Part shown: positions 12,024 through 23,870 of the stretch, in pieces
Numbering within the stretch: the stretch's first letter is position 1
Layout of the letters: every line of letters starts with the position of its first letter
Assembly (NCBI RefSeq): GCF_000427885.1
Contig: NZ_ATYW01000003.1
Coordinates: forward strand, 180,158 to 244,157
Direction of reading: 5' to 3'
Source of the DNA: Glycomyces tenuis DSM 44171
GTDB lineage: Bacteria; Actinomycetota; Actinomycetes; Mycobacteriales; Micromonosporaceae
DNA: 64,000 bases
The notes under the pieces: model-generated
Told to the model about the DNA's origin: nothing
The model's input: only the letters and a program-made list of their open reading frames with translations
Database searches by the model: none
Translations under genes and position numbers: made by a program

Positions 12024-12836
12024 ATGAGCCAATGGGAGATCGAGCGGGAGATCAAGGCGTACTACGAGCTGGGCGGCGAGCGCGAGCGCCTGAAGTCGAG
12101 CGCGGGCGGGCGCCTGGAGTTCATCCGCGTGCAGGAGCTGCTGCGCCGCGTCCTGCCCGGAACGGGCCTCGACGTGCTCGACGTCGGCGGCGCCACCGGC
12201 GTCCACGCCGAATGGCTGGCCGCCGACGGCCACAAGGTGACCCTCGTCGATCCGGTGGCGAGCCAGGTGGCCGTGGCCGCCGAACTGCCCGGCGTCGAGG
12301 CGAAGCTCGGCGACGCCCGCGCCCTGCCGTGCGAGGACGCCTCCTTCGACGCGGTCCTGCTCATGGGCCCGCTGTACCACCTGACCGAGCGGGAGCACCG
12401 CGTCCGGGCCCTGCGCGAGGCGCGCCGCGTCGCCCGCCCCGGCGCCGTGGTGGCCGCGGTGACGATCAACCGCACCGCGGGCTGGTCCGACTGGCTGCTG
12501 TGGAACGCCGAGGGCACCGTCCACTCGATCTCGGCAGCCGAGAGCCTCCGCGTGCTCCGGGAAGGCGACCTGCGCTTCTTCGACCACGACATCTTCACCA
12601 CGGCCTACCTGCACCACCCCGGTGACGTCGCCGAGGAGTTCGCCGCCGCCGGCATGGCCGGACCCGCCCAGTACGCCGTGCAGGGCTTCCCCGGCTACAT
12701 GCCGGAGCTGAGGGCGATCATCGACGACGAGGAGGCGCGCGAGCACCTCTTGGAAGGACTGCGCGTGATCGAGTCCGAGCCGTCCCTCCTGGGGGCCAGC
12801 AACCACCTGCTGACCGTGGCCCGCGTGCCGAGCTGA
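12024..12836 (+). CDS. Class I SAM-dependent methyltransferase
   Basis: This 270-residue protein has SAM motif I LDVGGATGVHA around residues 52-62, motif II VTLVDP near 74-79 and the post-motif SFDAVLLMGPLYHLTE. This is the pattern of UbiE/Methyltransf_11-type enzymes. The substrate cannot be deduced. The ATG (MSQWEIER) has GAGG upstream; a longer reading to 11943 would start inside the palindrome and lacks a site. It is transcribed away from the oxidoreductase/sigma operon. Confidence 0.85.
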   Translation: MSQWEIEREIKAYYELGGERERLKSSAGGRLEFIRVQELLRRVLPGTGLDVLDVGGATGVHAEWLAADGHKVTLVDPVASQVAVAAELPGVEAKLGDARALPCEDASFDAVLLMGPLYHLTEREHRVRALREARRVARPGAVVAAVTINRTAGWSDWLLWNAEGTVHSISAAESLRVLREGDLRFFDHDIFTTAYLHHPGDVAEEFAAAGMAGPAQYAVQGFPGYMPELRAIIDDEEAREHLLEGLRVIESEPSLLGASNHLLTVARVPS

Positions 12837-12943
12837 GCGGCCCGACGCCGCCGCCCTGTCGGCACGGAATCGACCGCCTCGGACGTCCCGGTCTTGTCAA
12901 GTTTGCGACACCTCCGGGGGACGTGCGCGGTCGGCGCGGTCGC

Positions 12944-12949
12944 TAGTGT
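12944..12949 (+). promoter_or_regulatory. -10 element placing the transcript start at the Trypco2 ATG
   Basis: TAGTGT lies seven bases before the ATG at 12956 and no ribosome-binding site is present. A transcript from this -10 would begin at or next to the start codon and be leaderless, which is common in actinobacteria. The -35 region is weak. Confidence 0.4.
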
Positions 12950-12955
12950 CGTGTG

Positions 12956-13270
12956 ATGGAACCGATTCCCCTCAGCTCGGCCCTGGCCGAGATCAGGAGA
13001 GAGCTCAAGATCGCCAAACTCACCAGCGATGAGGAACTCAAGCTCGAAGTCCAGGAGGTCGAGCTCGAACTGACCATGGACCTCGGCGAGGTGAAGCGCA
13101 AGGACGGCGGGATCTCGCTGTTCAACGTGGTCAGCTTCAACGGCGGCAAGGACGAGAACAGCGCCAACCAACACCGCATCAAGCTGGTGCTGAAGCCCAC
13201 CTTCGACGAGGGGGACGGCGGCGGACCCTCCACCTTGAACCTGTCCGCGAGCGAGCCGATCGACGACTAG
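12956..13270 (+). CDS. Trypco2-domain protein (trypsin co-occurring domain 2)
   Basis: This 104-residue protein matches the small Trypco2 family. It has the opening I-P-L-S-S-A-L-A-E-I-R-R-E-L helix, then LKLEVQEVELELTM, a glycine turn, and HRIKLVLKPTF near the end. In described genomes such proteins lie next to trypsin-like peptidase-NTPase genes in proposed biological conflict systems, and here exactly such a gene follows 178 bases downstream. The protein has no enzymatic motif and is probably a binding or sensing partner of that protease-NTPase. A GTG one codon upstream is an alternative start. The C-terminal 20 residues are acidic and probably disordered. Confidence 0.8.
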   Translation: MEPIPLSSALAEIRRELKIAKLTSDEELKLEVQEVELELTMDLGEVKRKDGGISLFNVVSFNGGKDENSANQHRIKLVLKPTFDEGDGGGPSTLNLSASEPIDD

Positions 13271-13448
13271 CGGTATGCGGACACCCCCTTCGGCGCCGGT
13301 GAGATACAGCGTCCGTCCGGCCCGGTTGGAACACCTCAAGGAGCTGCGGGATTTCGTCTCAGGAGGCGGGCGAAGGACGACGGGAGAGCGCGAACGGCTC
13401 AGGACGACTGTTCGTTCCGGAGACTCCATGGAGCCGGGGGAGTGAACG

Positions 13449-16400
13449 ATGAGCGGGATTGGGTTCGGGCAGTTGGAGGCCCGCGTCGTCGAGGTCAAGA
13501 CCGTCGTCTCGGGGGCGGACGGCCGCCGCCTCCATACCCTCAGCGGCTACCTTGTCGCGGACGGCCTGGTCCTCACCTGCGCTCACGATGTCATTGCGGC
13601 CGAGTCGGTCTCTACTCGCCTCGCGACCGGCGACCGCGAGCTCACCGCCGAGGTCATCTGGCCGCTTCCCTCCGACGGCCCGATCGACTCCGACGTCCTC
13701 GATGTCGCACTGCTGCACGCCGAGGGACTCAAGGCCCCCATCGACCAGCACCCCGTCTGGGCCGAGTACTCCGGATTCATCGGCGCCGTCGGCGCCCACG
13801 GCATCGGCTTCCCCTGGGCGTCCAAGGACACCGAACGCTTCCACTCGACACCGGTGGACGGCACCTTCCTCCCCGGTGAGGGCAAGACCCGCAACGCCAT
13901 GGTGTTCTCGGTGACCTCGACACTCCCCGCCGACGCCACCACCTGGGCCGGGCTCTCCGGCGCCATGATCCGCGACGACCACGGCCGCCTCCTCGGCATC
14001 GCCGCCAAACTCCTGCCCGCCTGGAGGGACAAGTTCCTCCTCGTCCCCGCGCCCCTCATCCTCGGCCAACCCCGCCTGCGGCGACTCCTCGGCGACCCCC
14101 GGCCGCACACGATCGCCTCCGAAGACCCGCTCATCAAACCCGCCTTCGAGCCGCTCGGCGAGGAGACCGACTTCAAGCTCATCACCGCCCGCTACGGCCA
14201 GGTCCCCTTCGTCGAGGCGAGCCACGGCGACGTGCTCGACGAACTGGCCGACTGGTGCAACGAACCGCAACGCCCCCAAGGGCCTCCGCTGCTCCGAGAA
14301 GCGAAGCGGACAGGCGCGCCCGACGTCGCCGTCCGGATCCTCCTGGGCCCCGGCGGTTCCGGGAAGACCCGCCTCGCCGCCGAGCTCTGCCGACGCCTCC
14401 AAGACGACCGGGAACGGCACTGGCTGGCGGGCTTCGCGCGCGAGGACGACACCGCCCGCTGGGAGTCCTTCCAAGCTCGGCAGTCGACGCTCATCGTCTT
14501 CGACTACGTGGAGCGCCCGGCCATCGCCGCGAAGGTCGCCGCCCTCCTGACCCGGCTCGACGAGTTGGGCTCCGCGCTCATGGGCCCGGTCCGCGTGCTG
14601 CTCGTGTCGCGCTCGACCACCAACTGGTACGACCAGGTGGACGACTACGGCCGGGGCGTCCTGAGCCGACGCCTCAGGATCGAGGGCGACTCCGCGAAGG
14701 TGACGCTCGCTCAGCAGCCCTTCGACCGGGAGCTGAAACGCCTCCACTTCAAGGCCGCGTTCGAGCGCTTCGCCGTGGGCCCGATCGACGGCCTCGCAAT
14801 GGACGACGCGGTGGACGCCGCCGTCGATGGCGCGATGGACGGCGTGATGGACGATCACCTCGGCGTGGTCGAGCACGACCACTACGACTCCCCGCTGCTG
14901 GTCCACATCGCCGCACTGCTCGCCGCGCGCAGCGGCGGCGTGCCCTCGGCATCACCGGACCGTCTGCGGGACGCCCTGCTCGACCACCTGATTCGCAGGG
15001 AGAGGCGCCAGCGCTGGGCGAGCGTGAACGGGCTGACGACGAGCTCGGTTCCCCTCGAAGAGAACGACCAGGCCCTGCACGCGATCGCGATCACGACCCT
15101 CACCGAGCCGACGCCGACCGAAGCGGCGGAGTTCCTGAAGTGCTCGCCGCTCTGGGAGGACCTCTACAACGTCAACCGCAGAGACGCCGTGAAGGCCGCA
15201 CTGCGGCTGTACCCCGGCGGCCAGACGGAAGGCGGACGGCCGACGAGGATCGCACCGATCGAGCCGGACCTGGTCGCCGAGCGGCTCCTGGTCACGGTCG
15301 ACGACCTCGGTGAGCTCATCGAGGGCCTTCTGCATCAGCCGCTCACCGCCCATCACTATGCGCGGCTGCTCCACATCCTCGCGCTCACGAACGACCACTA
15401 CCCGAAGGCCGCAGAGCATTTCGAGAAGGTCCTGGGCAAGCTCCTGGTGACCGCCGGGGCGGACGCGGAAGGTGACGCGGAGAACCGCGCCGAAGGCGGC
15501 GAATCGACGGCCGCCGTGCTCGGCCAGACGCTTCCACGCCTGATCGAGGGAGCGATCAGGCAGGTGCGAGACGGGCACGATCCGACCATGGCCAAGATGC
15601 TGACGGGCGCACTGCGTTCGATGGCGGGAAACGAGCAGGTCGAGCAGATGGCCGCCGACACCGTGTTCGTCCAATGCGAGGGGCATCCGGAACTGGTGCT
15701 GTTGCGGCGGACGCTCTATGAGCTGGCGAGCGAGCACTTCCGTCGCAGCGATCCGCGCGGAGCGAGCCTGCGGGGCACGCTCGAAGGGCTCATCGACGCA
15801 CTGCTTGAGTTGGACGAGGGCTCGGAGGCCTTCGAAGTCCTCAAGAAGCTCGAAGGCGCACGATGGTTTCCAGATTTCCTCGGCGCACGCGTCTACGCGG
15901 TCGAGCACGCTCGTTTCGACAAGCTGCTCTCCCTACTGCTGAGGGAAGGGAAGGTCAGTGAAGCGTTCTGGGCCTTCACCATGGTGATTCGCTCCTGGGG
16001 AGTCGCGCAGGAAGGCACGGTGTACCGGTGGGGCATCGATGTGTTCACGGAGTTCGACTCAGAGTTCTGGAATTCGAACCGATTTGCCCAGGTCATCGCG
16101 CCACTGCGGAACGAGTCTCTGTCCCAGTTGACTCCATGGGACGGCGACAGCGTAGATCCGGAATTGCTTGTTCGTGTGCTGGAGGGCATCAAAGACGAGC
16201 TCCTCCGGTCAGGACGGCTCCTCGAAGCGCTTCGGGTCGGCACCAAGGTCCTGAAGCTCCGTGACTTCGATGTGGCGCAGTGGCTGTTGCTCGACCACAT
16301 CGCGGACCAAGTCTGGGAGTCGGGTTCAGAGGCCTTCTCAGACGAGTTCATGCAGGAGTTCAGCGAGCTTCGCCGAAGGGTTGCCATAGCACGTCCCGGC

Positions 16401-18281
16401 CACGCTGAAGAGCATGTCGCCGCGCTTGAGAAGGACGGCAATCGATACGCGGGGCGTGGCATGTGGAGCGAAGCGAGCCGGTGTTTCTGGGACGCGACCC
16501 AGATTCGGCGGGACCTGCTGGACAGGTCGAACCCACAAAGCCGATTCCGCCTGATCGCCGCTCTGGACGACTATCTCGCCGTGACCCCTGTTGAGAACAA
16601 TCGGATAGCGTTCACGATCGACGTCCTCGTCGGTCAGTGGGAGGCGCTGGCGGGCCTGGACCCGGCCTACGAGATCGGTCACGCCATAGCCCTGGAGGAG
16701 CAGAGCCTGGACCGGTGGGCCGTCGACCCCGGTGCGGATGCTGTGAGCATCATGCGGAAGGCCGAACGCATTCGCCGGTATCACGCGTTTCTCAATCTGG
16801 ATGATCATCGCGCGCTGGAGTTGCTCTACCCCCGCGAAGCGCAGGCTTTCAAGAGGGTCGGCGAACGGCGACTGGCGAAGCGGATCACCTGGAGCTTCAG
16901 GCACCTGCAGGAGATGGTCGACGCATACCCCGGTGGCGAGTTTCTGCTTGCGCTGTACCTTGAGCGACAAACCGCGGCTTTGGCCGCAGAGGGGAAGCAT
17001 GCGGAGGCCCGCAGATCGGCCAACGCGATCATCCGGCTTCACAGGAAGATGAACGATGAGATGAAGCGCGCCTATGCGAGCCACCGCGCCGACGCGCTGA
17101 TGAACCTGTGCGGGCTGGAGAAGCAGGCGGAGAACTGGATCAAAGCCGGTTCGGCGGCCGAGCGAGCGGCCAAGATCTGCCGTGCGAACACCGAGCGGGG
17201 CCTGGAGTTCAAGGTGAGGCTTGCGCACGCCCTGACCGAGGCGGCCAACATGCACAACGCGCAGTCCCACGGCCTCCTCGGGCTGCCGGTGGCCAGAGAG
17301 GCGGTGGAACTGTTGCGTGAGCTGCTGGATCAGAGTCCGCGTCATCGGAGTTCCCTGGCCGGGGCGCTCATGGTCTGGGCTCGCTCCGCAACGCAATCGG
17401 TGGTGGAGCGGGGGAAGGCCGTGGCGGCGGCTGAGGAGGCGGTCGAGATCTATCGGGCGCTGGCGGAAGAAGATCCGTCGAAGCAGACCATGTTCGAGGA
17501 TTACCTCGGGCGGCTGTCCACGATCAAGGACAAGGTCGCCGGGAAGACCGGGTTATCCGCTGGGAGGGCCGCGATCGATGGAACGTCTCCTCCTGCTTGG
17601 CTGCTCCGGTGCCGGCAAGACGACGCTGGCCCTGGAGCTGTCGCTCATCCTGGATCTGCCTGTGGCGCATCTCGACGAGCTGCGCTACGACCGGTCTTGG
17701 AACGAGGCCGCGCCGGAGGACTTCGCCGCGAGTCAGCGGCGGCTGCTCGACCGGTCCCGCTTGATCTGCGACGGCAACTACCTCTCCACGCTCCCGCAGC
17801 GTCTGGCATGGGCCGATACCGTGATCTGGCTCGACTACGGCCCGATCCGCTGTCTGCGCCGGGTGTTCGCCCGACGTCTGCGGTACGGACCGGGACAGCA
17901 CGGCAACGGCGTCTTCGTTCGCCTCAATCGGCCCTTCCTGCGGTACGTCGCGACCTACCGGCGCGACCATGCTCCGCGCGTCCGGGCGGCCCTCGACCGC
18001 TACGCCGGCGACTGCGACGTCATCGTCCTGCGCCGCCCACGCCAGACCGCGGCCTTCCTCAAGCGGCTCCGTCGCGAACGGCAGGAGGGCGAGGGAGCCT
18101 GAAGCCAGCCCCGCCATCGGCTCACAGGATGAAGCTGTACACGAGGGTGAACGTGCTGAAGATCAGCATTCCCGTGGCGTTGAGGAAGAGGTTGCGGCCG
18201 AAGTCCCGCTCCCGCAGATGCATCGTGATGGCGATGACGAAGTACAGGACCAGGGCGGCCGAGGTCACCGCTCCGAGGTAG
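13449..18281 (+). CDS. Trypsin-like protease - STAND-type NTPase - helical-repeat protein
   Basis: The open frame encodes 1610 residues. Residues 1-215 are a trypsin-like domain with a likely triad of His46 (LTCAHDV), Asp85 (VLDVALL) and Ser170 (WAGLSGAM). An NTPase follows with Walker A GPGGSGKT at 300-307, Walker B LIVFDYVE at 348-355 and a sensor-like VLLVSRS at 383-389. Residues 451-469 are a low-complexity Asp/Val/Met stretch. From about 550 to 1370 the chain reads as TPR-like helical repeats. Up to about 17560 composition fits real coding. Beyond that it turns Arg/Pro/Ala-rich while a P-loop gene occupies another frame, so the last ~235 residues are probably not native: a stop has been lost, or a frameshift or sequence error lies near 17530-17580. 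GGGGGAG precedes the ATG. With the upstream Trypco2 gene it forms a probable conflict/signalling pair in which nucleotide-driven oligomerisation switches on proteolysis (inference). Confidence 0.8.
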   Translation: MSGIGFGQLEARVVEVKTVVSGADGRRLHTLSGYLVADGLVLTCAHDVIAAESVSTRLATGDRELTAEVIWPLPSDGPIDSDVLDVALLHAEGLKAPIDQHPVWAEYSGFIGAVGAHGIGFPWASKDTERFHSTPVDGTFLPGEGKTRNAMVFSVTSTLPADATTWAGLSGAMIRDDHGRLLGIAAKLLPAWRDKFLLVPAPLILGQPRLRRLLGDPRPHTIASEDPLIKPAFEPLGEETDFKLITARYGQVPFVEASHGDVLDELADWCNEPQRPQGPPLLREAKRTGAPDVAVRILLGPGGSGKTRLAAELCRRLQDDRERHWLAGFAREDDTARWESFQARQSTLIVFDYVERPAIAAKVAALLTRLDELGSALMGPVRVLLVSRSTTNWYDQVDDYGRGVLSRRLRIEGDSAKVTLAQQPFDRELKRLHFKAAFERFAVGPIDGLAMDDAVDAAVDGAMDGVMDDHLGVVEHDHYDSPLLVHIAALLAARSGGVPSASPDRLRDALLDHLIRRERRQRWASVNGLTTSSVPLEENDQALHAIAITTLTEPTPTEAAEFLKCSPLWEDLYNVNRRDAVKAALRLYPGGQTEGGRPTRIAPIEPDLVAERLLVTVDDLGELIEGLLHQPLTAHHYARLLHILALTNDHYPKAAEHFEKVLGKLLVTAGADAEGDAENRAEGGESTAAVLGQTLPRLIEGAIRQVRDGHDPTMAKMLTGALRSMAGNEQVEQMAADTVFVQCEGHPELVLLRRTLYELASEHFRRSDPRGASLRGTLEGLIDALLELDEGSEAFEVLKKLEGARWFPDFLGARVYAVEHARFDKLLSLLLREGKVSEAFWAFTMVIRSWGVAQEGTVYRWGIDVFTEFDSEFWNSNRFAQVIAPLRNESLSQLTPWDGDSVDPELLVRVLEGIKDELLRSGRLLEALRVGTKVLKLRDFDVAQWLLLDHIADQVWESGSEAFSDEFMQEFSELRRRVAIARPGHAEEHVAALEKDGNRYAGRGMWSEASRCFWDATQIRRDLLDRSNPQSRFRLIAALDDYLAVTPVENNRIAFTIDVLVGQWEALAGLDPAYEIGHAIALEEQSLDRWAVDPGADAVSIMRKAERIRRYHAFLNLDDHRALELLYPREAQAFKRVGERRLAKRITWSFRHLQEMVDAYPGGEFLLALYLERQTAALAAEGKHAEARRSANAIIRLHRKMNDEMKRAYASHRADALMNLCGLEKQAENWIKAGSAAERAAKICRANTERGLEFKVRLAHALTEAANMHNAQSHGLLGLPVAREAVELLRELLDQSPRHRSSLAGALMVWARSATQSVVERGKAVAAAEEAVEIYRALAEEDPSKQTMFEDYLGRLSTIKDKVAGKTGLSAGRAAIDGTSPPAWLLRCRQDDAGPGAVAHPGSACGASRRAALRPVLERGRAGGLRRESAAAARPVPLDLRRQLPLHAPAASGMGRYRDLARLRPDPLSAPGVRPTSAVRTGTARQRRLRSPQSALPAVRRDLPARPCSARPGGPRPLRRRLRRHRPAPPTPDRGLPQAAPSRTAGGRGSLKPAPPSAHRMKLYTRVNVLKISIPVALRKRLRPKSRSRRCIVMAMTKYRTRAAEVTAPR
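17578..18102 (+). CDS. Small P-loop kinase, 'topology modulation protein'/FlaR-like
   Basis: This 174-residue protein has Walker A GCSGAGKTT at 8-16, then HLDELRYD and LICDGNYLSTLPQRL, as in adenylate-kinase-like proteins named topology modulation protein or FlaR. The YRRD and LRRPRQTAAFLKRL C-terminus also fits. The ATG has GGGAGG upstream, and codon third positions are strongly GC, so this is the real coding frame here even though the protease-NTPase frame stays open across it. The physiological substrate of this family is unknown. Confidence 0.82.
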   Translation: MERLLLLGCSGAGKTTLALELSLILDLPVAHLDELRYDRSWNEAAPEDFAASQRRLLDRSRLICDGNYLSTLPQRLAWADTVIWLDYGPIRCLRRVFARRLRYGPGQHGNGVFVRLNRPFLRYVATYRRDHAPRVRAALDRYAGDCDVIVLRRPRQTAAFLKRLRRERQEGEGA

Positions 18282-18481
18282 GGCAGCCAGATCCCGATGA
18301 TCAGACCCGCAGCGGCGGCCAGCTTGATCGGCGTGAAGACCCACCACCAACGGCGGGGGAAGTTGACGCCTTCGAGGCACCTGGCGATGAACGCGACCGG
18401 CCGGATGCACAGCAGGCCATCGAAGAACGAGGCGATGGCCAGGACGATGACCGGCCATACAGGGTCAGGAAGAGAACTCAT
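18122..18481 (-). CDS. DoxX-like small membrane protein
   Basis: This 119-residue protein has four hydrophobic segments, with FIARCLEGVNFPRRWWW and FTPIKLAAAAGLIIG between the first and second. The P-I-K-L-A-AAGL motif is typical of DoxX-like (DoxX_2) membrane proteins, whose role is poorly known. The ATG is directly preceded by an inverted repeat at 18484-18506 and no ribosome-binding site is visible, so the mRNA may be leaderless and repressor-controlled. It converges with the P-loop kinase gene. Confidence 0.78.
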   Translation of the reverse strand: MSSLPDPVWPVIVLAIASFFDGLLCIRPVAFIARCLEGVNFPRRWWWVFTPIKLAAAAGLIIGIWLPYLGAVTSAALVLYFVIAITMHLRERDFGRNLFLNATGMLIFSTFTLVYSFIL

Positions 18482-18483
18482 AC

Positions 18484-18506
18484 GAGAACCGTATCATCGG
18501 ATTCTC
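18484..18506 (-). promoter_or_regulatory. Inverted repeat at the start of the DoxX-like gene
   Basis: GAGAACCG and CGGATTCTC are inverted copies with one extra base, around a TATCAT centre, two bases upstream of the ATG. The position suggests an operator overlapping the promoter. Confidence 0.4.
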
Positions 18507-18573
18507 GGAAAATGCCTCGGAAAGCGGTGCCCGGCGGTATGCGCAGGGACTTGCCCGCCCCGGGCCGCCCTCG

Positions 18574-19140
18574 TCACGGCTTGAGCATGAACCGGCCCGA
18601 CTTCAATCCGGCGGCGACCTCTGCGACGGTCTGCTCCACGCTCTGGTCGCTCGAATCGATCGCATGGCCTTCGAGCTCGCCGAGGTCCTGGAACATCCCG
18701 TGCATGTCGGTGACCGGTTCGACCTGTGTGAGCTCGTCGCCTCCTCGCGGAGTCGCCCTGGCGAGCAGCACCTCCAGCCGAGGGCGCAGGACGAGGTAAT
18801 GCAGGACGAGACCCCGCTCGCGGCAAGCCGATTCGAACCAGTCGAGCGCCCACAGCCCGAAGACGCCCTCGAGAACGGTGTCGTAGCCGCCCACGGCATA
18901 GGCGCACGCCGCTTCGGCCATGACGCTCATGACGACTCTGTTCTGACGATCGGATTCGGGAAGATAGGGCGGGATGTAGCCCTTGCGGATCCAGCTGTAG
19001 AAGGTGTCGGTGTGCGACAGGACCGTGGGTCGCTCGAAGGTCGCGACGAAGGCCTCGGAGACCGTGGATTTTCCCGATCCCGGCGGCCCGGACAGCAGGA
19101 TCAGGTCACCCGGCGGCATCGCGGTGGCGGCGTTCGGCAA
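18574..19140 (-). CDS. P-loop kinase-like protein (AAA_33/chloramphenicol phosphotransferase-like)
   Basis: This 188-residue protein has Walker A SGPPGSGKST at 17-26, then TVLSHTDTFYSWIRKGYIPP and a region with RPRLEVLLARATPRG that resembles the lid of small kinases. It is of the general type of chloramphenicol or shikimate kinase-like phosphotransferases; the substrate is unknown. The start is a TTG with GAGGAG seven bases upstream; an ATG seven codons inside (MPPGD) lacks such a site. It is the second small P-loop gene within 1.5 kb of the protease-NTPase. Confidence 0.78.
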   Translation of the reverse strand: MPNAATAMPPGDLILLSGPPGSGKSTVSEAFVATFERPTVLSHTDTFYSWIRKGYIPPYLPESDRQNRVVMSVMAEAACAYAVGGYDTVLEGVFGLWALDWFESACRERGLVLHYLVLRPRLEVLLARATPRGGDELTQVEPVTDMHGMFQDLGELEGHAIDSSDQSVEQTVAEVAAGLKSGRFMLKP

Positions 19141-19150
19141 TGCGGGCTCC

Positions 19151-19495
19151 TCAGGATCGGGTGACGCTGGAAGAGCCTATCGGCGGAGCATGTTGGAATC
19201 CAGGCGATTTACGGTGCACGACTGCGGCGCGCCTGGTGGCGGTCCTCGTTAACGAGACGGTCTTCAGGAGGGCCGCGAAGTCGGAGGTGCTGAGGTCGAA
19301 GACCGGGGACTTGTGGCCGAGCTTAGAGTCACGGACCTGGAAACCGGCGGTGAGGTGGCGGGCCTCGACGCAGTTCGCGCTCGAAGCGTTGTCACTCCGG
19401 GAGCTCTTCCTCCAGGACTGGCGGCACTCAACGCAGTCGGCGCTGGAGCCGTTGGCGCTTCGGGAACTCTTCCGCCAGCCTGTGAACTCAGCCAT
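19151..19495 (-). CDS. DUF397 protein with duplicated N-terminal half
   Basis: This 114-residue protein carries the DUF397 signature W-R-K-S-S-R-S followed by C-V-E and V-R-D-S-K. The first half is present twice in tandem: WRKSSRSANGSSADCVEC at residues 7-24 and WRKSSRSDNASSANCVEA at 28-45, a 21-residue period. About 30 residues (SLTRTATRRAAVV and on) extend past the normal family end at LLKTV and may come from a frameshift near the end. DUF397 proteins are small partners of XRE/DUF5753 regulators. The start lies inside the regulator gene upstream with an eight-base overlap, so the two are coupled. Confidence 0.85.
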   Translation of the reverse strand: MAEFTGWRKSSRSANGSSADCVECRQSWRKSSRSDNASSANCVEARHLTAGFQVRDSKLGHKSPVFDLSTSDFAALLKTVSLTRTATRRAAVVHRKSPGFQHAPPIGSSSVTRS

Positions 19496-20297
19496 CGAGG
19501 TACCTTCCGATCGGTATCGCGCCCTTCCAAAGGACGTCCAGAACCTGATCATACAAGGCAAGTTTCTCGGGTTCCACGATGTGACGGCTCTGATCGATGG
19601 ATTCGACATACACGAAAGCAGGGCCAGCTCCGGTACGCCCATCTGGCTGAAAGATCTCAAAGGCATGCAGCGCTTCATGTGGTTCCGCTACGACTCGGAC
19701 CTCGTTGTTCGGCAGGTGAGCTACCTCGCAAAGCCGTTGCAGTTGAGCGCTCCTCTCATCTGTTGTGAGGCGATCGAGGTTCTCGATTGCGAAGGCAGGA
19801 ACCAGGAACTTTCCGCGAGGGAAGTCGTTCCGGCCGAAGAAGACCGCGATGCGTCGCTCCTTGCGCTTCCAGTGCTTGATCTTGAGCGCTGCTCCCTCGC
19901 GCGGTTCTGCGAGCTGCTTCATGTGGTAGGCCTCGGTTTGGAGGAGCGCAGGAATTAGAAGAGGATCCCACTTGGTGATAACACCGTAGGTACGCTCGCC
20001 ACCCTCGATGATGAAGATGTTGCGCTTGTTGAGGTCTGAGACGAGCCCCGGGCCGAGATGGAGCTGTTCGGTGACGTGCTCCAGGAACTCCGCCCGCTCC
20101 TTCTCGGCCCCGAGCTTCTTGCAGATGTGGGCCACATTGCCGACATCCGGGAGCCTCTGGCCCCGCTCCCAGTAGCTGATGGTGTTCTCGTGCTTCCTGA
20201 TGGCATCGCCGAGCCACCTTTGTGACCGGCCCGCTTCCAATCGGATCGCGAGCAGCTCCGCAGTCACGTACCACTCGATCAGTTCTGAGAATCCCAT
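19488..20297 (-). CDS. XRE-family regulator with DUF5753 domain
   Basis: This 269-residue protein has an N-terminal helix-turn-helix (about 14-75: LEAGRSQRWLGDAIRKHENT, then ISYWERGQRLP) and a C-terminal DUF5753 ligand/partner domain with the marker EGGERTYGVITKWDPLLIPA followed by LLQTEAYH. This family occurs in many copies in differentiating actinobacteria next to DUF397 genes and is thought to work as a regulator/partner pair. The base composition is lower in GC than in flanking housekeeping genes. Repeated ATTGTGGG elements at 20401-20444, upstream of its start, are candidate binding sites. Confidence 0.88.
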   Translation of the reverse strand: MGFSELIEWYVTAELLAIRLEAGRSQRWLGDAIRKHENTISYWERGQRLPDVGNVAHICKKLGAEKERAEFLEHVTEQLHLGPGLVSDLNKRNIFIIEGGERTYGVITKWDPLLIPALLQTEAYHMKQLAEPREGAALKIKHWKRKERRIAVFFGRNDFPRGKFLVPAFAIENLDRLTTDERSAQLQRLCEVAHLPNNEVRVVAEPHEALHAFEIFQPDGRTGAGPAFVYVESIDQSRHIVEPEKLALYDQVLDVLWKGAIPIGRYLDG

Positions 20298-20644
20298 TGA
20301 GCCTCCCGCTATTCAGGCTGAATGCTGATGGTAACCGATCATCGCATGTTGCGGTACATACAGATCGAGCGGTATCTCCACAAAGCTGTCCGATTGGCGA
20401 CCCACAATGAATGGCCTAAAAGATTGTGGGACGGCCGTTGTGGGAATCACCTCTCCGCAGCTGAATATGGGGGTTGACAAAGCTCTTGAGCAGCCTAAAC
20501 GTGCCTTATCTTTAGTGCATCGCGAATCGCGACATGCGACTCGCGAACGGTGGGGAAGCCCGGGGGCCGCGAGCCTCCCGAAGACATATCGCGGCCTCCG
20601 GGTACAACTCCATAGGGCTCATTCAAATCCGCAATGGAGGACCA
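20298..20644. promoter_or_regulatory. Divergent control region between the XRE regulator and a small unknown gene
   Basis: This 347-base region of lower GC holds no convincing gene. It contains CCCACAAT at 20401-20408, ATTGTGGG at 20423-20430 and GTTGTGGG at 20437-20444. A TTGACA at 20474-20479 with TAAACG 16 bases later is a usable rightward promoter. A cluster of TCGCGA repeats follows at about 20520-20550. GGAGG stands before the next ATG. Confidence 0.5.
20401..20444. repeat. Inverted and direct ATTGTGGG repeats
   Basis: CCCACAAT and ATTGTGGG form a perfect 8-bp inverted repeat with a 14-base spacer, and a further GTTGTGGG follows after six bases. The cluster lies about 100 bases upstream of the XRE regulator start and fits an autoregulatory operator. 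Confidence 0.45.
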
Positions 20645-20962
20645 ATGCGCTACCCGAGTGTTCAAGGTTTTCAAGGGCGCCGTCCGTCGCCTCAGGCCGA
20701 TGAGGTCGAAATAGGCGTCACCGTCGTCGGTTCCACACGAGTGAGGGTGATCCTGGATCCCGATTGGGCGTCGCTGGTGTGCCTGCGCGTCGCGCCCGGC
20801 GAAGCAGTGCAGTATCTCGGCGTCGTCACCGGCGCCGACACCGACACGCCGAACCTGCGCCTCACGACCGAGCAGTCCTGGCGCTTCCCGACCCCCGAGA
20901 TTCGAGAGTCCCTGCGCGGCTCGGTCCTGGCGCTGTTCGCGGCCTGGAAGGAGCGGCAGTGA
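20645..20962 (+). CDS. Unknown small protein, first of a two-gene unit
   Basis: This 105-residue protein is not recognised. It has VEIGVTVVGSTRVRVILDPD and LRVAPGEAVQYLGVVTG in the middle and ends with LFAAWKERQ. No signal peptide or membrane segment is seen. GGAGG precedes the ATG at a good distance. Its stop overlaps the GTG of the next gene (GTGA), so the two are translationally coupled. It is divergent from the XRE/DUF397 pair and may be under that regulator's control, which is inference from position only. Confidence 0.7.
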   Translation: MRYPSVQGFQGRRPSPQADEVEIGVTVVGSTRVRVILDPDWASLVCLRVAPGEAVQYLGVVTGADTDTPNLRLTTEQSWRFPTPEIRESLRGSVLALFAAWKERQ

Positions 20963-21348
20963 GTCAGGACGTCTACTTGGGGGAGTTCCGACGCGGTCCG
21001 GCGATCTTCACGGTCTTCGACACGAGCGGAGCGGACGGCGGACACACCGGCGAATCCACCAGCGCACCGGCCGATGGTTCGACCGGCGGTCCGGCCGATG
21101 AACCGGTCGGCTTCACCGAGAGGTCGGCCGACGGATCCGCCCGCAGTCTCACCGGCGGTCCCAGCGACAGACCCGCGAGCACGGGCCGCCGCTTCCGCGT
21201 CGATTGCAGCGACGGCAACGGCCCCGGCGAGGTCTGCACTTTCACCTCCGATGAATCCCCGACCTGGCGCGGGGCCTGGAACGGCGACGAGTGGTGCGTG
21301 TGGATCGAGGCCGAGGCCCGCAAGGTCGTCAAGCAGCCCGAGCGCTGA
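20959..21348 (+). CDS. Unknown small protein with Ser/Thr/Gly/Pro-rich middle
   Basis: This 129-residue protein is not recognised. Residues 1-20 (DVYLGEFRRGPAIFTVFD) and 75-129 (FRVDCSDG..., WRGAWNGDEWCVWIEAEARK) look structured. Residues 24-72 are low-complexity, with repeated GPADG/GGPADEP/GGPSDRP elements, and look disordered. The GTG start overlaps the stop of the previous gene and has GGAAGGAG upstream. The even shape of the two ends suggests one small domain interrupted by a repeat insertion. Confidence 0.65.
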   Translation: MSQDVYLGEFRRGPAIFTVFDTSGADGGHTGESTSAPADGSTGGPADEPVGFTERSADGSARSLTGGPSDRPASTGRRFRVDCSDGNGPGEVCTFTSDESPTWRGAWNGDEWCVWIEAEARKVVKQPER

Positions 21349-21414
21349 CTGAACCCTGACCGGCTCCGGTCTCGCCGGGCGCCTTCCCACTGGTGCCGAA
21401 CTGCCCGGTCGGCC

Positions 21415-22104
21415 TCAGGCCAGTGCCAGTTCGGCGAGGCGCTCGGCGTGCAGCCGGGTCGAGTCGAACACCGGGACCGGGCTGTCCGAGGCGTTCACGA
21501 GCAGGGTGATCTCGGTGCAGCCGTAGATGATCCCCTCGCATCCCCGCTCGGCCAGACCGGTCATGACCCGCCGGTACGCCGCGCGGGACTCCTCGCGCAC
21601 GACACCGACGGTGAGTTCGCCGTAGATGACGTCGTGGACCGTCTCGCGGTCCGCCTCGGGCGGCACGACGACCTCGACGCCGTGCGCGGCCATGCGCTCG
21701 CGGTAGAAGCCCATCTCCATGGTGAACCGCGTGGCGAGCAGCCCGACCCGGTCCAGCCCGGCGGCCTTGACGCGGTCGGCGGTCGCGTCGACCAAGTGGA
21801 CGAAGGGCACCGCCACGGCCTCCTCGATCCGGTCGGCTACCAGATGCATCGTGTTGGTGCACAAGGCGATGAGCTCGGCGCCTCCGCGTTCGAGCGCGAG
21901 GGCCGCCGCGACGAGCCGCTCGCCCGCCGCCGACCAGTCGCCCGCGCGCTGCAAGGCCTCGATCTCGGCGAAGTCCACGGTGAACATGAGGCTCTCGGCG
22001 TTGTGCTGGCCGCCGAGCCTGGCCCGGACCTCCTGGTTGAGAAGGCGGTAGTACTCGGCCGAGGACTCCCAGGACATCCCGCCGATCAGACCGATGGTGC
22101 GCAT
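21415..22104 (-). CDS. Aspartate/glutamate racemase family protein
   Basis: This 229-residue protein has the two catalytic cysteines of cofactor-independent amino-acid racemases: Cys82 in LCTNTMH and Cys196 in YGCTEIT. It opens with TIGLIGGMSWESSAEYY, typical of aspartate racemase and EcL-DER type enzymes. It would interconvert L- and D-aspartate or a related acid. The gene stands alone, divergent from a nucleotidyltransferase gene. Confidence 0.9.
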   Translation of the reverse strand: MRTIGLIGGMSWESSAEYYRLLNQEVRARLGGQHNAESLMFTVDFAEIEALQRAGDWSAAGERLVAAALALERGGAELIALCTNTMHLVADRIEEAVAVPFVHLVDATADRVKAAGLDRVGLLATRFTMEMGFYRERMAAHGVEVVVPPEADRETVHDVIYGELTVGVVREESRAAYRRVMTGLAERGCEGIIYGCTEITLLVNASDSPVPVFDSTRLHAERLAELALA

Positions 22105-22315
22105 CGCGCCATTCTCCACCACGGGCCGCCGCCGCGCTCGATGACACGGCGGCGGCCGTGCTTGCCGGGCCGTGCGGGGCGCCCGCCGAACGGACCGGCG
22201 ACGAGCTGATCGCCGTCCGCGCCGATCGCTTCCGCATCCCCGAGCCGCTACCATTCGCGAAGGCGTCAGGCGGCCCGCCGCACCGCAACCCGTCGATTCC
22301 GGAGGCACCGAGGCG

Positions 22316-23104
22316 ATGAGTCCCACCAGCACCGACCAGGGCGGACCGGACCCGTGGGAGCTCGTCACGGCGCTGAAGCGATGGGCCGAGGACACCGACT
22401 GGGTGGACTGGGCCGAGCTCGCGGGCTCACTCGGACGCGGCGCCGGTGACGAGCTCTCCGACGTCGACGCCGGTATCGGCGTCCATGAACTGGCCGAGTC
22501 CGATGCGCGCATCGCCGAGGCGGCCGCGGCCGTCGCCTCCTTCGCGCCCGTCGCCGCCACCCTGCACCAGCGCTTGAACGGCAGCGTCGACCATCTCATC
22601 TGCGCCTACCGGGACGGCCGCCAGCTCTCCCTCGTCGTCGTCGACGAGACCGCCAGGCCCGGCCTGCCGCCGCAGGCCGCCGTGCTGGTCGACAAGTCGG
22701 GCCGGCTCTCCTCCGCGATGGATCGGAGCCGCTGGGACGCCGACGAGGCGACCGTCCGGGAATGGGCGTTCCTGGCGTGGATAGCGATCGGCGACGCCGC
22801 GCGCCACCGGCTCCGCGATCGCCCTTGGCGCGCACTGAAGGCGCTCGATGAAGCCCGCGACAACCTCTGGAAGCTCTGGGCCCACACCCTCGGCCTGGTG
22901 TTCCCCGTGCACGGCGCCGTGGCGGTCGAGAACGCGGACGCCGCACTGCCGTCCGGCATCGAGGAGACGCACCCCCGTGATCTGAGCCCCGCAGAACTGC
23001 ACCGGGCGCTGGCCGCGGTCGGTCGTCTCCTGGAGCCTTACACCACCGGGGACCTGTCGGCCCTGGCCGAGACGGTCGGGCGCCGCCTCGCCCTCCTCGG
23101 CTGA
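22316..23104 (+). CDS. Nucleotidyltransferase-fold protein
   Basis: This 262-residue protein shows the polymerase-beta-type nucleotidyltransferase motif G-S (38-39) followed by D-V-D (49-51) in GSLGRGAGDELSDVDAGI, then a helical C-terminal half. Such proteins resemble aminoglycoside nucleotidyltransferases and other antibiotic or small-molecule transferases. The target is not known. GGAGG stands 10 bases before the ATG. It converges with a VOC protein gene. Confidence 0.78.
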   Translation: MSPTSTDQGGPDPWELVTALKRWAEDTDWVDWAELAGSLGRGAGDELSDVDAGIGVHELAESDARIAEAAAAVASFAPVAATLHQRLNGSVDHLICAYRDGRQLSLVVVDETARPGLPPQAAVLVDKSGRLSSAMDRSRWDADEATVREWAFLAWIAIGDAARHRLRDRPWRALKALDEARDNLWKLWAHTLGLVFPVHGAVAVENADAALPSGIEETHPRDLSPAELHRALAAVGRLLEPYTTGDLSALAETVGRRLALLG

Positions 23105-23120: not shown

Positions 23121-23870
23121 TCAGGCGGCCGGTTCGGGGACCCGGGAGGTGATGCAGTATTCGAGTCCAGCCGGGTCGCGCATGACCTGCCAGTGCTCGA
23201 AGCGCTCGACCGGGACGGCCCCGAGCTCGTTGTGCCGCACCGTCTCGGCCTCGACGTCCGAGCAGGCCAGGTCGATGTGCGCGGTGACCGGTTCGCCCAC
23301 CCCGACCTCCTCGCGGCGTTGCAGCAGGATCTCCAGCGGCATGCCCCGCGGCCGTTCGAGCCGTTCGAACTCCGGCCGCCTGCTCGGCAGGCCCCGCCGC
23401 CCGGTGAACGCCTTCCAGAAGTCCCGTTCGCGCTCGTAGCCGACCCAGGGGATGTCGATGCAGATCTGGTCGGCGATGCTCCGCTGGCCTCCCGGCCACT
23501 CGACCGGCGAGGGCACCCGCGATTCGCCGTGGTGCGCCACCAGGCAGAACGGGAAGCCGCCGGGGGAGCTGAGGACCGTGACCTCCCCCTGCTCCTCGGC
23601 GACGACGCTCGCGCCGAGCGCGGTCGCCCGCTCGGCCGCGGCGGCCACATCGTCCACGTGCAGGTCGAGATGATTGCCGCCCTTGCCGGAACGGACGCGC
23701 TGCACGCGCAGGCACGCGTCGCCCTCGGTGGGGATCAGCGTCGCGAACTCGCCGCCCGGCCCGCGCGGCTCCGACAGGTCCGCGTCGGTCGCCTCGACCC
23801 AGAACTCGACGCCGGTCTCGAAGGTCTCGGCGGGGAAGTCCCAGAACGCCGTCATCCATCGAATCGCCAT
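23121..23870 (-). CDS. Two-domain VOC (glyoxalase-like) protein
   Basis: This 249-residue protein has two VOC half-modules. The first (residues 5-113) has NHLDLHVDDVAAAAERATAL and FPFCLV, and the second (about 130-245) has ICIDIPWVGYERERDFWKAF, AHIDLACSD and RDPAGLEYCIT. These are the paired betaalphabeta repeats that bind a metal or ligand in glyoxalases and bleomycin-type resistance proteins. No adjacent gene gives a substrate. Confidence 0.82.
   Translation of the reverse strand: MAIRWMTAFWDFPAETFETGVEFWVEATDADLSEPRGPGGEFATLIPTEGDACLRVQRVRSGKGGNHLDLHVDDVAAAAERATALGASVVAEEQGEVTVLSSPGGFPFCLVAHHGESRVPSPVEWPGGQRSIADQICIDIPWVGYERERDFWKAFTGRRGLPSRRPEFERLERPRGMPLEILLQRREEVGVGEPVTAHIDLACSDVEAETVRHNELGAVPVERFEHWQVMRDPAGLEYCITSRVPEPAA

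Follow-up and report, generated by a model that had tools for sequence, protein, structure and literature searches.

A Trypco2 gene beside trypsin-NTPase genes in Glycomyces and other actinobacteria: a candidate NLR-like protease pair

What role could a small Trypco2 protein have beside a giant protein that combines a trypsin-like protease with an NTPase? The question is raised by two genes in a stretch of 64,000 nucleotides (nt) from Glycomyces tenuis DSM 44171 (contig NZ_ATYW01000003.1, positions 180,158 to 244,157), referred to here as the window, in which a Trypco2 gene is followed by the gene for a large protein with a predicted trypsin fold, a predicted STAND-type NTPase region and a predicted long helical arm (Table 1). 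On balance, we favour the view that the two genes make up one unit that works as an NLR-like alarm, with Trypco2 acting on the protease.

The small protein matched the Trypco2 profile PF19631 with an E-value of 5.3e-15 and 55.9 bits, against a curated cut-off of 24.2, over profile positions 1-78 of 78, in agreement with a preliminary description made from the sequence alone, which had placed a Trypco2 protein of this length upstream of the giant. Fold, profile and frame analyses also bore out the giant of about 1370 residues with a triad of His46, Asp85 and Ser170 that was claimed there; it has the trypsin fold and the His-Asp-Ser triad, and peptidase activity is predicted for it. The long TPR-like repeats were recovered as well, as helices in the structure model up to amino acid (aa) 1190, where the model ends, and as TPR matches obtained with a profile of the giant's family. 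Rows of the structural alignment (VIA-align) reach aa 1-220 at most, so they have no bearing on the NTPase and helical folds. Foldseek also returned SAMD9 (E 2.3e-6, template modelling score ~0.2) and long helical-repeat proteins. As for the claimed STAND-type NTPase, it stood in its motifs, with Walker A, Walker B and a conserved Arg388 after the next strand all present, which we take to be marks of STAND proteins, but not in the profile score of the window protein, whose match to nSTAND_NTPase5 (PF25199; E 3.5e-4, 20.9 bits) fell below the cut-off of 34. The same family appears in the precomputed annotation of the relatives P0005, P0014, P0018 and P0021.

Glycomyces accounts for 7 of the 9 relatives of the giant with an organism name. 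Mean identity to the window giant over 15 relatives was 41% in the protease part (aa 1-230), 47% in the NTPase region (aa 291-660) and 16% in aa 801-1370; a conserved enzyme half with a variable arm is the pattern that an arm facing varying targets would produce. Both activities look kept, since the triad is present in 36 of the 38 aligned Trypco2-linked partners (the other two are gapped at one residue), and since the P-loop Lys and the Walker B Asp are found in 23/23 aligned nSTAND5-like partners and the later Arg in 22/23. In the C-termini of P0002, P0003, P0004 and P0006, several hydrophobic, membrane-like stretches were seen by eye in place of the last repeats.

We examined the linkage of the two genes in samples of 22 genomes from the genus, 101 from the family and 296 from the class. 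PF19631 was detected at 14 loci in 12/22 genus genomes, as against 24/296 genomes of the class sample, the window's included. A trypsin gene lies beside Trypco2 at 13 of the 14 genus loci, window included, and in 12 of these 13 pairs it is directly downstream on the same strand; at G099:C4 the giant is upstream of Trypco2 with one opposite-strand gene between them. Seen from the other side, trypsin-NTPase loci numbered 11 in 10 genus genomes, again with the window, and Trypco2 was adjacent at 10 of them; the link between homologues and Trypco2 that the preliminary description had put forward is thus present, as is the trypsin fold. None of the four genus matches to the NTPase part without a trypsin part had an adjacent Trypco2 gene (G049:C25 and G114:C34 were scanned and showed no trypsin match; the other two are short P-loop matches). 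Three further genus Trypco2 loci (L065, L066 and L067) carry a trypsin with a weak nSTAND5 match below the cut-off. In the family sample some match was found in 30/101 genomes, mostly to short NTPase or repeat stretches; of the four full relatives in G013 and G026, two have an adjacent Trypco2 gene and two do not.

The 28 class-sample Trypco2 loci outside the window's own genome were scanned with a trypsin-profile limit of E < 0.01. An adjacent trypsin was identified at 26 of them, as a same-strand downstream frame in 24 and as a head-to-head gene in L090 and L100; L104 and L112, the latter a partial Trypco2 match, were without one. Matches to the NTPase profile of the giant's family were found in or beside the trypsin frame at 12 of the 28 loci (in L107, two different frames), and a 13th, at L112 (E 0.0017), came without a trypsin. 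A Pfam scan of 16 class partners gave Trypsin_2 in all 16 at E 0.01, 13 of them above the cut-off, and VMAP in none. Their further domains were NACHT in four (one, L095, with TPR), NB-ARC in two, nSTAND5 below the cut-off in two, and, in one partner each, CHAT with weak AAA_16, WD40 with weak NTPase matches, vWA, protein kinase with TPR, weak CHAT, and Sel1; two had none. The constant elements are therefore Trypco2 and trypsin, and the remainder of the partner varies from copy to copy. A quick tree was built from 36 trypsin rows, with 13 of its 33 inner branches open; on it the four NACHT-fused copies require 3 changes, and well supported branches force 2 or more of these.

Trypco2, which accompanies the trypsin domain rather than any single type of NTPase, most probably acts on the protease. 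On the model of NLR-like proteins, the variable C-terminal arm would sense a molecule of an intruder, upon which the NTPase would assemble, and assembly would gather the protease domains and switch the protease on. The likely part of Trypco2 would be to bind the protease domain and control how active it is, most probably by keeping it off until assembly or, alternatively, by completing it. What was observed are the two genes, the conserved triad and nucleotide-site motifs, the poorly conserved arm, the link of Trypco2 to trypsin-carrying partners, the lack of a specific third recurring gene among the neighbourhoods compared and the accessory location; sensing, assembly, protease switching, Trypco2 binding and a role in defence are inferred.

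Should Trypco2 be regarded as a regulator of the protease or as its target? The window copy was aligned with 14 further members; over 35-37 aligned copies, the most constant positions were L6, R14, L17, A20, V58 and L79, among which no catalytic set was evident, and we therefore lean towards a regulator. Profile searches detected no enzyme family above cut-off in Trypco2. It is improbable, in our estimate, that Trypco2 is instead a substrate, cut by the trypsin on activation to release a fragment that acts as effector or signal, a role that a protein of ~100 aa with such constant positions and no enzyme family above cut-off does not favour. The gene order is nevertheless that of the nuclease-protease pairs of AVAST and Hachiman, with a separate gene just upstream of the protease-fused switch, and in those pairs cleavage activates the upstream pro-nuclease (PMC12799240). 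We hold the substrate reading to be a serious rival, because there an upstream product is cleaved by a switch-fused trypsin.

Several observations weigh against an alarm in which Trypco2 controls the protease. The Trypco2 gene at G110:C127 stands alone, with the one giant of that genome lying elsewhere without Trypco2, and the giants at G013:C1a and G026:C26 have no adjacent Trypco2 gene. Relative P0004 has lost the P-loop Lys in a changed Walker A, and the distant relative P0018 has Cys in place of the active Ser. When all 8 partner labels are placed on the trypsin tree, 8 changes are needed where the least possible is 7; as this is one above the minimum, the case for partner exchange comes mainly from how many types there are. 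Trypco2 distances track those of the NTPase (r 0.79) and of the trypsin (r 0.76) alike, with partial correlations of 0.45 and 0.33 (24 rows), so co-divergence singles out no partner domain, and the mirror-tree comparison of whether Trypco2 follows trypsin or NTPase was set aside as giving no discrimination. The structure model of Trypco2 is of low confidence (mean predicted local distance difference test score 51.8), and since the model is poor no Trypco2 interface could be judged. The gap of 178 nt between the two window genes is longer than in relatives that have the usual order, where the Trypco2 stop is separated from the start of the partner by a few to ~60 nt by eye. Both plasmid records that carry the pair (E 1e-10) are typed as non-mobilizable, no phage record matches the pair at E 1e-5, no known defence gene was recognised among 10 scanned window neighbours, and neither pair protein matches PADLOC-DB 2.0.0 at E 1 (5027 models), a database that covers AVAST.

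That no known defence family was matched could also be expected of a cellular regulator of development or stress, in which a STAND protease cuts a host regulator rather than serving against phages, and the neighbours outside the accessory segment described below do look like ordinary metabolic or transport genes. We find such a role rather unlikely in view of the patchy presence of the pair, its position in an accessory segment, its plasmid copies, the low conservation of the C-terminus and the differing partners.

A last point of this kind is that the window copy of the giant lacks its own stop and may be damaged or mis-assembled. Its frame stays open to 18281, and position-specific guanine-cytosine (GC) content shifts frame from the bin 17349-17648 to the bin 17649-17948; in this area a kinase-like gene in a different frame begins at ATG 17578. 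Since GC switches frame there and the lengths of the 12 closest relatives fall within 1153-1405 aa, we placed the native part at ~1370-1376 aa without its own stop. The missing stop may reflect real damage, a real fusion tail or an assembly error, and is compatible with all three alike. The wrong-frame read-through of another gene, with no stop until 18281, would suit a decaying, non-working copy that has lost its end within a functional family, but the motifs are intact, the codon-position bias is kept over ~1370 codons, the tail may be harmless and the assembly may be at fault, and we consider decay unlikely.

Trypco2-linked trypsins share a signature at the active serine, as 34 of 37 have Trp four residues ahead of it (WxGxSG). 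It was found in 0/30 other trypsins from ten genomes, seven of them with Trypco2; 27 of these read GNSGG and 3 reads are unreliable. These controls were the best-scoring trypsins, largely HtrA-like proteins, and WxGxSG also occurs in three giants without an adjacent Trypco2 gene, which tells against a strict tie; for both reasons we take it to mark a trypsin subfamily and not adjacency. Tentatively, and as a possibility rather than a probability, Trypco2 and the WxGxSG trypsin may form a portable protease cassette joined in actinobacteria to many immune receptors, namely nSTAND5-like, NACHT, NB-ARC, CHAT, WD40 and kinase proteins. The pair would then be an undescribed two-gene protease-NLR class, with Trypco2 as a clamp that silences the protease until the receptor assembles.

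How does the pair relate to known systems? Trypco2 was named in 2020 by Kaur et al. from trypsin-carrying VMAP proteins of MoxR-vWA ternary systems (PMC7159879). The preliminary description had derived the name from a link to trypsin-NTPase genes, and of this the tie to trypsin proteins stands, whereas the trypsin-NTPase fusions are not the source of the name. In those ternary systems a Trypco gene likewise lies beside a trypsin fused to a regulatory protein (PMC7159879), but in the window the trypsin continues into an active-looking STAND-type NTPase with helical repeats. Membership of the VMAP system was rejected, with no match to VMAP, MoxR or vWA in the pair (for VMAP in the giant, at E 1) or in the 10 scanned window neighbours; the vWA domain occurred in 1 of the 16 class partners scanned. 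The nuclease-protease pairs, AVAST among them, resemble ours in having a trypsin-like protease fused to a defence protein, with the partner gene typically just upstream, and the pairing has been found in several unrelated systems (PMC12799240). Their partner is a pro-nuclease of the metallo-beta-lactamase fold, unlike the small Trypco2 of the window, and no PADLOC model was matched; an AVAST-like pro-nuclease partner was discarded, as no nuclease gene recurs among the neighbours compared with a simple gene finder at E 1e-10.

Trypsin-like peptidase and ATPase or STAND NTPase are also found in one protein in LypABC CARD-NLR (PMC13236601) and in the trypsin-bDLD2-STAND proteins of NucA systems (PMC7159879). 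LypA carries an N-terminal CARD of ~80 aa ahead of its peptidase, whereas the window protease starts at about aa 12; in the model its first long strand is aa 13-22 with only a four-residue helix ahead, and for want of a helical CARD there we rejected CARD-NLR membership. The window family differs from CARD-NLR and NucA systems also in that no endonuclease gene recurred among the neighbours compared. Avs and bNACHT NLR-like proteins have the same layout of N-terminal effector, central STAND NTPase and C-terminal sensor, for example TPR (PMC10907252), but the window NTPase is nearest to nSTAND5, and the part of the effector falls to a protease that has Trypco2 as its dedicated neighbour. Trypco2 is in print with VMAP-type systems and systems linked to diversity-generating retroelements, and Trypco2 and trypsin-STAND fusions have each been described (PMC7159879). 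In the excerpts of the Trypco2 literature we found no two-gene link to nSTAND5-, NACHT- or NB-ARC-type proteins, which supplements may list, and no experimental role for Trypco2. That Trypco2 accompanies trypsin across many switches, with no specific third neighbour, narrows the question to two proteins open to expression and assay. It also suggests that bacterial NLR-like immunity has a branch built on proteases, alongside the nuclease-protease pairs.

For the neighbours, the genes predicted in the 5 kb around each of 18 loci, 146 in all, were clustered at a match limit of E 1e-10, using a simple gene finder that misses genes, several giants included. The only cluster recurring in at least 3 genomes was that of generic ABC ATPases. 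A two-gene unit fits, because no specific third gene recurs, with weakly conserved or missed genes being possible. At L077 (G105:C53, 13106-16221), DnaJ-, Hsp70- and GrpE-like genes were seen by eye directly after a Trypco2/trypsin-NTPase pair.

Table 1. Features of the Trypco2 and trypsin-NTPase locus, in window coordinates
Feature	Position	Strand	Basis
Trypco2 gene, 104 aa	12956..13270	+	PF19631 profile match; forecast fold of a helix, then beta strands
Large protein, native-like part of open frame, 1376 aa	13449..17576	+	Frame, GC pattern, lengths of relatives
Trypsin-fold serine protease domain, ~aa 12-230, His46/Asp85/Ser170	13482..14138	+	
STAND-type NTPase region, ~aa 291-660	14319..15428	+	Weak profile match, annotation of relatives, motif columns
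Walker A, GPGGSGKT	14346-14369	+	
Walker B, FDYVE	14499-14513	+	
Alpha-helical TPR-like array, poorly conserved C-terminal half	15264..17558	+	Model helices, family-profile TPR matches
Out-of-frame run-on of the giant's frame, without native counterpart	17577..18281	+	GC-position switch, overlapping gene
P-loop kinase-like gene, different frame	17578..18102	+	Open reading frame; AAA_18 at E 0.0057, below cut-off, sole match
Accessory segment with the pair, absent from relative G069	12843..23090	no strand	blastn blocks

In its location the pair behaves as an accessory element, in the way that conflict genes do. A gene matching the methyltransferase just upstream of the pair (E 1e-40 or better) is present in 19/22 genus genomes, the most similar (81%) being that of G069, where the glyoxalase-like gene found at 23121 in the window comes directly after it. 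Thus 10.2 kb including the pair are missing in G069, where the blastn blocks that stop at 12842 and restart at 23091 in the window abut; the difference is compatible both with a gain in the window and with a loss in G069. The segment has a GC content of 0.668, lower than the 0.719 of the remaining window, and is flanked by a 9-nt direct repeat at 12832 and 23100 (42 of 2000 random 40-nt pairs share a 9-mer). In most of the remaining genomes that were read, genes located beyond 27,000 in the window come soon after the methyltransferase, and G110 has its Trypco2 gene in the corresponding interval.

At L123 (G109:C23, 2393-5653), the interval from methyltransferase to PCMT, in which the pair lies in the window, is occupied by a CHAT protein showing a weak TPR match; this suggests a site that takes up conflict-type genes. 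Two Streptomyces plasmids carry the pair, with genes that overlap by 8 nt or sit 14 nt apart. At the plasmid locus L160 (NZ_CP108614.1, 60090-69955), a pair of Trypco2 and a TPR protein is found close to an ISAzo13 transposase and to a gene whose annotation reads dsDNA nuclease domain-containing protein. Within the accessory segment of the window, a DUF397 gene overlaps an XRE/DUF5753 gene at 19151-20297, and similar genes lie downstream of the G116 methyltransferase. Window positions 18574-19119 encode a P-loop kinase with weak matches to the AAA_33, chloramphenicol phosphotransferase-like and zeta toxin families.

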